Source: an uncultured Nitrospira sp.
GTDB lineage: Bacteria > Nitrospirota > Nitrospiria > Nitrospirales > Nitrospiraceae
Reading direction: 5' to 3'
Length of the DNA: 35,525 bases
Assembly: GCA_902500775.1 (NCBI GenBank)
Contig: CABVRZ010000045.1
Span: 1 to 35,525, forward strand
Position 1 is the first letter of the stretch. Each line of letters opens with the position of its first letter. Below are positions 23,341-27,266 of this stretch, one piece after another. Position numbers and translations under genes: made by a program. The notes beneath the pieces were generated by a model, which was given only the letters and a program-made list of their open reading frames with translations, had not been told where the DNA came from and did no database searches.

Positions 23341-25017
23341 ATGTTTGCTGGCTGGAATCATGTAGATAGCTGGGCTCTTCGGGGTTTCATTACCTGCGTT
23401 CTTGCTGAGGTGCTGTTTGTTCTCGTTTTTGACCCGTTCCCGACAGTCGACATGGCCGCACATCTCGCGTCTGCTCGAGGAGTGGCGGACATCATTGGTG
23501 GCGGATCGGTCACCACGTCTCATTTGCTTGAATGGAATTTCATCCCCCCTCCGAACCTGCTTCCCCAACTAGTCCTTGGGGCGCTTGTGCCGACGGTGGG
23601 CTCCCTCTGGGCAGAGCGGTGCATTCTGGTCACCTATGTCATTGTGTTCTCCCTCTCCGCTGTCTGGGCCATTCGGCAGACCCGCCCTGGAACGATGCTG
23701 CTCAGCTTTTTCGTACTACCCCTGACTTTCAATTTACCGTTCCTTTGGGGCTTCCTGAATTTTAGTTATTCGATCGCAGGCTTTCTCTTCGTCGCAGGTT
23801 TGCTGATGCGTTGGGATGGGCAGCTCGATTCCGATCGCATGAAGATGCTCGCCTTGGCGCTGGTCCTCGTGTTTTTCACGCACTTAGTCGGTTACCTGGA
23901 GGCCGGCCTCCTCAGCGTTTGCATGCTCGGCGCAGCGTGTATTCTCAGCGATAGGCCCCTGGCAGCGTTGACCCGCGCCGCAATGGCACTGTCGCCGGCT
24001 GCCGTGCTGACTCTGGTCTTCCTAATATTGACGGGCTCAGAGCCGACGTCCGTCTCATTTGATCTCGCCGCCAAACTCGCTGCATTGAAAGGCTTGATTT
24101 CACTGACGACTAGCGTCGCCACGTATGATCGGTTGGAACGCGTGCCCTGTGTGGCAACGGGAATTGCACTGTGGATATTGCTTCTGATGGCAGCCATGCG
24201 TGGTCAGTGGAGTTGGATTTACCGTCCGGCTCCTTTGGGGCTCGCGGCATTCGTATTTCTGTCATCGGTTGTTGCCGTCTTCGCTCCGAGCGGAATGGGA
24301 ACCGGCGGGACGCTTGGTTCCATTCGGTACGCGCTCTTTCCCATTCTCGGAGCAATCCTGTGGCTCGCATATCAGCCCCTGCCTCCCCGCATTGTGCTCA
24401 TAGGTGCCACCGTCGCGTGTCTCGCAGCATTGAGTTTGGCCTCGATTCGTCATGATGAGCTTCGTGCCATCGAGATCGCGTTGCAGGACCTGCGCAACCT
24501 TGAATCTTGTGTGTCACCTGATTCCACCGTGGTTCAGGCGAACCTTCGAACGGTAAAATTTGGATCACTCGCCCGTCCTAGTTCACTGGTGGCGGAAACC
24601 GGACGGCTTACAGCAGCCCGCAAGGCGTTGGATCTTAGTAATGTCGATTGGTCGGTGCCGTTCGGTCTCCTCCGATTCAGAGAAGAGACTAATCCGTATA
24701 CGCACTTAGTGCGGCCTGGAAAGGGATTCTTTCGGATCGAGTCTGTACCGCCTCCACTCGACTTGGAAGGCTACGAGCATCACACAAACATCCTGGTGGA
24801 TTATATCGTTGTGTTCGGCCGTACTTTGCCAACGGGTGCGATAGAGATACAACCTCCGGAACAATCTGCAGACCTGGTCGCCCTAGAGCTGAACCGGTTT
24901 GAGTCAACCTTGAATCAGCACTACGTCCGAGTCAGGACGTCCTCACTTGGAATTTGGGAACTCTGGGGGAGACGCCTCTCGTCATCGGACGAGAGGCTTT
25001 CAGGCTGCCAACGCTAA
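23341..25017 (+). CDS. Multi-spanning GT-C-like membrane glycosyltransferase (putative)
   Basis: A 558-residue integral membrane protein with about ten hydrophobic helices in residues 13-375 and a soluble C-terminal region of about 180 residues. The first loop contains VDMAAHLASAR with D37 and H41, the position where GT-C fold glycosyltransferases carry their catalytic acidic residue after the first helix. This and the neighbouring dolichol-phosphate-sugar-synthase-like gene suggest transfer of a lipid-linked sugar on the outer face of the membrane (inference); I do not recognise a specific family. The start ATG has only a weak GA-rich ribosome binding site. The last codons contain a terminator-like hairpin, and the gene converges on the CPBP protease gene. 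Confidence 0.65.
   Translation: MFAGWNHVDSWALRGFITCVLAEVLFVLVFDPFPTVDMAAHLASARGVADIIGGGSVTTSHLLEWNFIPPPNLLPQLVLGALVPTVGSLWAERCILVTYVIVFSLSAVWAIRQTRPGTMLLSFFVLPLTFNLPFLWGFLNFSYSIAGFLFVAGLLMRWDGQLDSDRMKMLALALVLVFFTHLVGYLEAGLLSVCMLGAACILSDRPLAALTRAAMALSPAAVLTLVFLILTGSEPTSVSFDLAAKLAALKGLISLTTSVATYDRLERVPCVATGIALWILLLMAAMRGQWSWIYRPAPLGLAAFVFLSSVVAVFAPSGMGTGGTLGSIRYALFPILGAILWLAYQPLPPRIVLIGATVACLAALSLASIRHDELRAIEIALQDLRNLESCVSPDSTVVQANLRTVKFGSLARPSSLVAETGRLTAARKALDLSNVDWSVPFGLLRFREETNPYTHLVRPGKGFFRIESVPPPLDLEGYEHHTNILVDYIVVFGRTLPTGAIEIQPPEQSADLVALELNRFESTLNQHYVRVRTSSLGIWELWGRRLSSSDERLSGCQR
24974..24997 (+). terminator. Terminator-like hairpin inside the 3' end of the GT-C-like gene
   Basis: A perfect 10-bp stem GCCTCTCGTC / GACGAGAGGC with loop ATCG, followed by TTTC. 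It lies 17 bases before the stop codon of the gene rather than after it. The T run is short. Confidence 0.5.
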
Positions 25018-25149: not shown

Positions 25150-25662
25150 CTATCGGACATCGGACTCTGTAGAAGGCAGCACAGAATCAATGAAAAAAAA
25201 GTACCCGCCGTTGTACCACATGTGCATCACGATTGAAGGCACTGTGGAATTGAAACGATCACGAAGATAGCCAAAGACCAGAGAGGGGAGGAACACCAGG
25301 GCGGCCCAGATTGGGCTATGGCTCCACAGGTGAACGGCTGTAAACACAAGAGAGACAATAATGTTCGCACCGCTCAAACCGAAGACCCAGGAGTGTGTCC
25401 ATCCACGCTCGATGAGTTCGCCCTGCAACAATCCTCGAAACAGCAGCTCTTCCCATAGTGGGTACCACAGGACTGCTGAGGCAAAGCCCAACGACCACAC
25501 GTGGACAAGAGACATCGAATGAACAGGAACAACCGATGCCATGATAGCCCAGACCAGTGGAGCAGCCACAGCACAAAGAAGAAAGGCTTTGCTGGCATAG
25601 AGTTTGAGCGGCCAGAAAAGCCCTAACCGACCACGTATGTGATACCAATCGGTCCTCGTCAT
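25150..25662 (-). CDS. CPBP (glutamic-type) intramembrane protease, MrtJ-like
   Basis: A 170-residue membrane protease of the CPBP/Rce1 superfamily with all three catalytic motifs: EELLFR (E71, E72, R76), FTAVH (H111) and HMWYN (H147, N151). The stretch VFLPSLVFGYLRDR and the order SGANIIVSLVF match what I recall of the JDVT-CTERM-associated branch (MrtJ), in which the protease processes a C-terminal sorting signal. The start ATG 25662 overlaps the stop of the upstream small gene by 4 bp (ATGA), implying translational coupling; a GTG at 25680 is also in frame. The overlapping upstream gene encodes the candidate substrate. The family call is firm; the MrtJ sub-assignment is by eye. Confidence 0.85.
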   Translation of the reverse strand: MTRTDWYHIRGRLGLFWPLKLYASKAFLLCAVAAPLVWAIMASVVPVHSMSLVHVWSLGFASAVLWYPLWEELLFRGLLQGELIERGWTHSWVFGLSGANIIVSLVFTAVHLWSHSPIWAALVFLPSLVFGYLRDRFNSTVPSIVMHMWYNGGYFFFIDSVLPSTESDVR

Positions 25663-25889
25663 AGTTGTCTTGAGAACCACAGGGCGATCAAATAAACCAA
25701 ATACGATATATAGGTTAAGGGCAATATGCGATCAACCTTGTTCAGGCGTTGTTTTCTGCACAGGGATACTAAGCCAACGACGACAAGAAACACGAGTGGT
25801 AGTCTCGCATCAGATGTTGCTGATCTGTTGAGTGTGCAACCGCCATGGTCATCGGCATGGGTAGGGGACGGAGTCGGATCGGTTGTCAT
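25659..25889 (-). CDS. Small protein with JDVT-CTERM-like sorting segment
   Basis: A 76-residue protein. A short D/T/P/S-rich N-terminus (1-15) leads to GGCTLNRSATSDARLPL, with C18, D27 and LP at 30-31, then a hydrophobic helix (about 31-43) and a basic patch (CRKQR). This Gly-Gly-Cys / Asp / Leu-Pro / helix / basic order is that of JDVT-CTERM sorting domains as I recall them. Unusually, the chain continues into a second membrane helix (about 56-71). There is no signal peptide and no passenger domain, and an in-frame stop at 25917-25919 blocks any upstream extension. The start lacks a good Shine-Dalgarno. The stop overlaps the protease start. It is either a minimal substrate or the relic of a larger one. 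Confidence 0.6.
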   Translation of the reverse strand: MTTDPTPSPTHADDHGGCTLNRSATSDARLPLVFLVVVGLVSLCRKQRLNKVDRILPLTYISYLVYLIALWFSRQL

Positions 25890-26126
25890 CGTGGTTAGGT
25901 GGCGGTATCGCTCACCTCAGCCGTTCAGGTAATCCCAAGTGATTGCACGCCTCCGTCAGACCACGATTTAAACATATGATTTATACTCCCCAACGCCGGG
26001 GGAATTCTGCCACGAACGGAATGAATTGAGCCTTGAACGACAGGGCGGGTACGTGGCGTGAAAGATTGGCATAACCATTTCGATGATTGTCGCACCGCAG
26101 TCCCAGACACCGATCCGCACACATCG

Positions 26127-27266
26127 TTACCTATTTTTGCCCCACGTATAGACCTGGGACACTGCGTAGTTCCAAACGGCACCGACCAGTATGCCAGCGA
26201 GCGCTGCAACGATCCACTGTGCGCGGTTTTCAAACAAATAGGAGGCGATCCCAACATTGGCAAGGGCGCCAAGGCTACAGGCGAGGATGAAGGTCACGAG
26301 CCCTTTCCACCAGGTCACGCCCCTCAATCGAGAGTCGCGGTAGGTTAAGACGTTATTGAGCGCAAAATTAAAGGTCATCGCGGCGCCTGTTGCGACAGAC
26401 TGTGCCGTTGTAAAACCCGAGTGCACTCCATGTAATGCGACGCTCAAGACGGCCATATGGACGAAGATGCCAATGCCGCCGATGATTGAAAAGGTGAGGA
26501 AGCGCACTGGTATGTAGCGACCGATCGTCTTATCGGCCAGCAACATGACATATTCCCAGACGACCATCTCGTCCAACTTGCTTTCCCCGGCGATACGATT
26601 ACGAAACCGGTAGGGTACTTCGGTGACACGCAGTGGCGGCTTGGCCGTCGCAAGGATGTCGAGAAGGATTTTGAAGCCTAAACCTGAGAGATGGTGAACG
26701 GTCGACTCCAACACGTTCCGTTGGAGCATGAAGAATCCACTCATGGGATCTGAGACAGGCTGTTTAAGGATCACTCGGCTTGCTGTGGTCGCAAATCGAC
26801 TCATGACTTTTCGAGATTCGTTCCAGTCACCCGTGCTCCCGCCCCCAGAATAGCGGGTTCCTATCACCACATCCGCACCACCTTCGATCTCGGTGAGCAT
26901 ATTAGGCAAAATCGACTCATCATGCTGCAAATCGGCATCCATCACGGCGATGGTGAGCGCCGAAGCTGCCAACATCCCCTCAATGCATGCCGACGATAAT
27001 CCTCGCCGGCCAACTCGTTGCAGACAACGGACGCGAGGATCGGTTCGTGCAATATCGCGCACGACTGCCGCAGTTCCATCGGGTGAATCATCATCGACGA
27101 AGATGATTTCCCATCCGGCCGCGCCAAGCGTCTCCTCGATGCGACGCAGTAATTCCTTGACGTTCTGAGACTCGTTAAACGTTGGGATAACGATTGACAA
27201 GCGAAGCCACGACGGACTCATACGTGTTGTGCTTTCCTCAGTTCGAGACCGTTGCACGACAGACAT
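26127..27266 (-). CDS. Polyprenol-phosphate sugar synthase-like GT2 glycosyltransferase with GtrA domain
   Basis: A 379-residue fusion. Residues 20-245 are a family-2 glycosyltransferase of the dolichyl-phosphate mannose synthase type: VIPTFNES, the nucleotide-sugar DDDSPDGT (58-65), and the metal-binding MDADLQHDE (D110, D112). Residues about 255-375 hold four membrane helices with the GtrA pattern, ending near WNYAVSQVYTWG; GtrA proteins are thought to move polyprenol-linked sugars across the membrane. The product should be an undecaprenyl-phosphate sugar for an outward-facing GT-C enzyme, possibly the one at 23341 (inference). The start at 27266 is uncertain; ATG 27221 (MSPSWLRLS) is an alternative. 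It is upstream of the sorting peptide and protease on the same strand, after a 237-bp gap. Confidence 0.9.
   Translation of the reverse strand: MSVVQRSRTEESTTRMSPSWLRLSIVIPTFNESQNVKELLRRIEETLGAAGWEIIFVDDDSPDGTAAVVRDIARTDPRVRCLQRVGRRGLSSACIEGMLAASALTIAVMDADLQHDESILPNMLTEIEGGADVVIGTRYSGGGSTGDWNESRKVMSRFATTASRVILKQPVSDPMSGFFMLQRNVLESTVHHLSGLGFKILLDILATAKPPLRVTEVPYRFRNRIAGESKLDEMVVWEYVMLLADKTIGRYIPVRFLTFSIIGGIGIFVHMAVLSVALHGVHSGFTTAQSVATGAAMTFNFALNNVLTYRDSRLRGVTWWKGLVTFILACSLGALANVGIASYLFENRAQWIVAALAGILVGAVWNYAVSQVYTWGKNR

Follow-up and report, generated by a model that had tools for sequence, protein, structure and literature searches.

Does a 76-aa open reading frame (ORF) that overlaps the start of a CPBP-family intramembrane protease gene constitute a minimal protein-sorting unit, or is it what is left of something larger? 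The question is raised by a locus in the window, i.e., the whole 35,525-nucleotide stretch analyzed here (contig CABVRZ010000045.1 of GenBank assembly GCA_902500775.1, from an uncultured Nitrospira sp.). The initial annotation had described two ORFs joined by an ATGA overlap and a protease with intact motifs, and both observations were confirmed on the minus strand (25889-25150); the attribution to a Nitrospira-like organism was likewise correct, in that the genome and the relatives carrying comparable loci are all Nitrospira. The functional proposal attached to the pair fared less well, and we conclude that the locus very probably represents a JDVT-CTERM/MrtJ protein-sorting pair that has decayed (Table 1).

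Table 1. Features of the decayed JDVT-CTERM/MrtJ locus and its flanks (positions in the window)
Feature	Position	Strand	Evidence
558-aa membrane-protein-like gene, convergent with mrtJ	23341..25017	+	G004 homolog, 74% identity
MrtJ, JDVT-CTERM system glutamic intramembrane protease	25150..25662	-	NF033192, 102 bits
76-aa ORF: 3' portion of the substrate remnant that stays in frame, with a run-on extension	25659..25889	-	NF033191, 12.5 bits; matches C-terminal ~60-70 residues of 831-843-aa relatives
TTT where the relatives' MrtJ ATG start stands	25690..25692	-	alignment
TTA where the substrate stop stood (TGA in G001)	25716..25718	-	alignment
Substrate remnant, second frame: former JDVT-CTERM tail	25719..25907	-	tblastn, G001 substrate residues 762-831, 53% identity
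First-frame part of the substrate remnant, interrupted by in-frame stops	25898..26068	-	residues about 730-775 of 843-aa substrate, continuing towards the tail
Glycosyltransferase family 2/GtrA gene, syntenic neighbor upstream	26127..27266	-	Pfam PF00535, PF04138

The protease half of the pair is readily classified. Its score against the MrtJ equivalog model NF033192 lies well over the curated cut-off of 75 bits and is the best among 11 models compared (next, 55 bits), which agrees with the family originally proposed and rules out an unrelated CPBP branch; Pfam assigns the protein to the Rce1-like family (PF02517). The catalytic motifs (EELLFR, FTAVH, and HMWYN) are intact, none of the 43 positions with at least 90% conservation among 43 relatives has changed, and the frame contains neither a stop nor an indel. 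The predicted protein has 170 aa from the ATG at 25662 or 176 aa from a GTG at 25680, 18 bases upstream.

The 76-aa ORF, read from an ATG at 25889 to 25659 on the minus strand (MTTDPTPSPTHADDHGGCTLNRSATSDARLPLVFLVVVGLVSLCRKQRLNKVDRILPLTYISYLVYLIALWFSRQL), matched no Pfam family and fell below the cut-off of 27 bits of the JDVT-CTERM model NF033191, with 12.5 bits in the protein scan and 13.6 in the genome search. This score alone is not decisive, because intact substrates of the same MrtJ clade also lie near the cut-off (23.4 bits for one in the protein scan and 28.5-31.1 in the genome search). The GGC cysteine codon at 25836-25838 in the second-frame remnant is followed by D, LP, a helix, and a basic patch, and the Cys, Asp, and LP positions are indeed common to the window tail and its relatives (GGCTLNRSATSDARLP versus GGCTLNRSGTGDALLP). 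We take these features to derive from a JDVT-CTERM tail; the label JDVT-CTERM-like is apt for the origin of the small protein but not for its score. The ORF overshoots the usual end of such a tail by ~20 residues, with a second hydrophobic stretch, and the secreted protein at whose very C terminus the tail should stand is gone. The ~180 bases upstream of the ORF encode a further part of the same protein in another frame. Altogether, with 831-844-aa relatives as queries, positions 26068-25719 match substrate residues ~730-842 (approximately the C-terminal 113 of 843); the match is spread over two frames and contains stops, of which two TGA and one TAA interrupt the part at 26068-25898. Judged from these alignments, the 76-aa ORF is a pseudogene fragment from the 3' end of a disrupted gene for an ~840-aa substrate. 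The rest of that gene was not found in the window's own genome (99.7% complete), where only distant paralogs (33-36% identity) and two subtilase tails were recovered. In the 36-codon remnant tail, Cys, Asp, and LP still lie in one frame, and pairwise dN/dS values of 0.22-0.45 give no clear indication of neutrality; most of this divergence could be older than the break. Since similar values were obtained for the pseudogene copy of the relative G032, pairwise dN/dS cannot date the decay in the window.

The nature of the missing gene is apparent from homologous loci. In the MrtJ tree, the window falls in a ten-locus clade (support 100/100), four members of which (G004, G037, G001, and G012) comprise a gene for an 831-844-aa JDVT-CTERM protein followed by a MrtJ gene whose product is 73-78% identical to that of the window; a short form of the substrate was encountered in none of these four. 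The G037 substrate, the one scanned, combines a glucose/sorbosone dehydrogenase (GSDH) domain with PKD domains and shares 74-76% identity with the remaining three. The two-gene unit of the initial annotation, with a 76-aa protein as one partner, is contradicted by these loci. Within the clade the window groups with G032, G075, and the intact G037 (support 93/92), and since this group includes an intact locus, the loss in the window looks separate from those in G032 and G075. An additional family of ~500-aa proteins without a Pfam match was observed ahead of JDVT-CTERM/MrtJ pairs, or of MrtJ alone, in several Nitrospira (L078:5468-6994, minus strand; L070, L073, L075, and L105). A gene of a ~508-aa family precedes the substrate in G001 and G012, and it directly precedes MrtJ in G018, G031, and G041.

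Sequence comparison thus shows, at the homologous loci, a gene for a full-length 831-844-aa GSDH-like PKD protein with a C-terminal JDVT-CTERM, followed by MrtJ, whereas the window retains no more than the final ~113 codons of the substrate gene, interrupted by a frameshift and stops. With the substrate stop lost, the final frame continues as far as a TGA within mrtJ, which produces the ATGA overlap. The alignment bears directly on this last step. The G001 substrate ends in ...VNKVDRTLP-TGA, and the corresponding window codon is TTA; the 76-aa ORF is longer because the old stop is read in this way, its frame continuing through the former spacer (LTYISYLVYLIALWFSRQL) to a TGA that in relatives such as G004 and G001 falls inside MrtJ codons (gTG Acg). 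This TGA and the protease ATG at 25662 form the ATGA. The ATG in question is specific to the window among eight sequences compared (V3M), and the possible MrtJ start of the relatives is an ATG located some ten codons farther upstream (ATG GAT CGT CCT and similar), where the window reads TTT GAT CGC CCT at 25692. The overlap thus results from the loss of the old stop codon combined with a window-specific ATG and is coincidental. None of the four intact relatives has the overlap; their substrate genes stop 52-71 nt ahead of the aligned MrtJ codon. No Shine-Dalgarno match was detected before the 76-aa ORF; that before either possible MrtJ start in the window is weak (-2.2), but two relatives are equally weak, so this carries little weight.

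Whether the window MrtJ is still in use is a separate matter. Its window-specific changes comprise 13 nonsynonymous and 10 synonymous substitutions, against ~72% nonsynonymous expected without constraint (P = 0.07), which hints at some constraint; recent decay and continued use both fit. The gene could be at an early stage of pseudogenization; alternatively, translation from the ATG at 25662 would yield a protease that could still work in trans on both of the subtilase JDVT-CTERM proteins encoded elsewhere in the genome. These were recovered by the search for further proteins with the same signal that had been suggested at the outset, and no other JDVT-CTERM protein passed the cut-off in this genome. 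They are encoded on contig G000:C14, each followed by a MrtJ gene of its own (98 and 76 bits, the two in tandem); both are full-size (787 and 795 aa, tails of 34.8 and 44.1 bits, over the cut-off), with a fervidolysin-like prodomain and an InlB-type repeat, and the two pairs (L039, G000:C14:12000-27000) are probably the product of a duplication. A further CPBP protein of ~500 aa in the same genome (G000:C3; L103:353-1849, plus strand), with a long N-terminal part, was considered as a MrtJ and set aside as a different family member with a subthreshold score; similar subthreshold matches occur in most Nitrospira and order-level relatives.

Among 147 related genomes, MrtJ passed the cut-off in 35 and JDVT-CTERM in 33, all of the latter from the window's genus and all 33 also encoding MrtJ. 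The two genomes with MrtJ alone are G075, whose copy contains stops and adjoins a transposase-like gene, and G078 (99% complete; L104, G078:C24:411620-411907), a possible orphan for which no JDVT-CTERM partner was found. Most MrtJ genes of the relatives lie directly downstream of one large JDVT-CTERM gene, and that of the window has only the broken 3' remnant beside it. Nitrospira has two main classes of substrate (subtilase and GSDH/PKD), which are associated with different MrtJ clades.

The linked substrate is missing not only here: six of the ten loci in the window's clade lack it (the window's own G000, G032, G075, G018, G031, and G041). At the G032 locus, where MrtJ has two stops, the JDVT tail alone persists, fused behind the first residues of a transposase-like ORF. 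The resulting 67-aa open frame (L101, G032:C197:49964-50059 and flanks) has a transposase-like start (MSEKFLLTKQQLNRI) and an almost entire JDVT-CTERM tail (26.4 bits), fused by chance through an insertion element. In G041, a possible vestige of the basic tail is left. In G018, G031, G041, and G012, the sole MrtJ over the cut-off belongs to the window's clade and a full-size JDVT-CTERM protein is encoded elsewhere in the genome; in the first three, the intact MrtJ is accompanied by such an unlinked protein only. The unlinked protein is a subtilase in G018, G012, and G041 (L107, G018:C5; L108, G012:C4; L109, G041:C6), and no MrtJ lies within several kilobases on either side of it in these three genomes (G041 being only 78% complete). 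The simplest reading of this gene content suggests that MrtJ of the window's clade processes the unlinked subtilase in trans.

The remnant itself might have been co-opted as a translational leader or mini-substrate that, through the ATGA coupling, keeps an otherwise orphaned MrtJ expressed. That MrtJ would then act in trans on JDVT-CTERM subtilases encoded away from it, an arrangement that the gene contents of G018, G031, and G041 suggest for their own MrtJ; taken broadly, we consider this quite improbable. Its leader form, in which translation of the remnant up to the ATGA would keep a MrtJ deprived of its start codon expressed for work in trans, draws on the loss of the old MrtJ ATG and the gain of a new one exactly at the run-on stop, on the conserved MrtJ residues, and on those genomes in which MrtJ of this clade has an unlinked partner only; with no Shine-Dalgarno sequence before the leader ORF, and with two MrtJ genes already beside the genome's two other substrates, it is very improbable. 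That the 76-aa protein itself serves MrtJ as a small substrate of its own, with its translation coupled to that of the protease and with lipidation at, or cleavage next to, its Cys, is extremely improbable: the retention of Cys, Asp, LP, helix, and basic residues, the open MrtJ frame, and the overlap would all accord with it, but the protein is under the JDVT-CTERM cut-off, it has, by eye, no N-terminal signal peptide, unlike a secreted substrate, it lacks a Shine-Dalgarno sequence, the remainder of an ~840-aa gene lies broken directly upstream, and no intact relative has a short form.

The flanking genes place the decayed pair in a locus that has also been reorganized. The glycosyltransferase/GtrA gene adjoins the pair in G004 (88% identical) and the broken locus in G032 (82%). 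In the window, the 558-aa gene, which has no Pfam or NCBIfam match above the cut-off, is found beyond mrtJ, and its G004 homolog sits between the glycosyltransferase and substrate genes. In the DNA alignment of G004 with the window, ~4.86 kb between two matches corresponds to 56 bp in the window; because the 558-aa gene has moved to the far side of mrtJ, the event is a rearrangement and not necessarily a single deletion. A misjoin that removed most of an intact substrate gene from the assembly is hardly credible, since several separate lesions (stops, a frameshift, a lost stop, and a lost start) are not expected from it and no other GSDH substrate part was found in the nearly complete genome, even if the assembly is single and fragmented (79 contigs) and the 558-aa neighbor is placed differently from that in G004.

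Gene decay of an ordinary kind in a known system is thus our preferred account, and it removes a false lead, that of a minimal JDVT-CTERM peptide. The comparative gain is modest: JDVT-CTERM/MrtJ is common in Nitrospira, its linked substrate has been lost repeatedly, and the co-occurrence in some genomes of one MrtJ with one unlinked JDVT-CTERM protein suggests that MrtJ is able to act on unlinked substrates belonging to another class. A literature search found no paper linking Nitrospira with JDVT-CTERM.

A close counterpart is the homologous locus of Nitrospira sp. ACE_NIT9 (G004; JAHBWQ010000140.1, L072/L079), which shares with the window the glycosyltransferase neighbor, a 78% identical MrtJ, and a substrate 3' end alignable at the DNA level; it differs in its intact 844-aa substrate gene and MrtJ start codon and in having the 558-aa neighbor on the other side of the pair. 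JDVT-CTERM/MrtJ as such is a two-gene sorting system (NF033191/NF033192; Haft 2024, via PMC11980579), which PMC11980579 describes as sporadic in beta- and gammaproteobacteria. The window resembles it in a protease over the curated cut-off that is preceded, in the customary arrangement, by a fragment derived from a gene for a JDVT-CTERM substrate, but here the substrate is broken and its product would have no secreted body, the usual protease start codon is lost, and the host is a Nitrospira. In the MYXO-CTERM system, lipidation is presumed to take place at the invariant Cys and the tail is removed by the protease, the protein staying anchored at the cell surface (PMC11980579; MrtX and TraA in Myxococcus); by analogy, an intact pair of the present type would involve secretion, presumed lipidation at the invariant Cys, and tail cleavage by MrtJ. 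MrtX and MrtC of the MYXO-CTERM system (PMC11980579) are, like the window protease, CPBP glutamic proteases with EExxxR, FxxxH, and HxxxN motifs whose target tails have an invariant Cys, a helix, and a basic end, but the window protease scores far under both cut-offs, with 27.9 bits against the cut-off of 180 for MrtX (NF040593) and 41.8 against 195 for MrtC.
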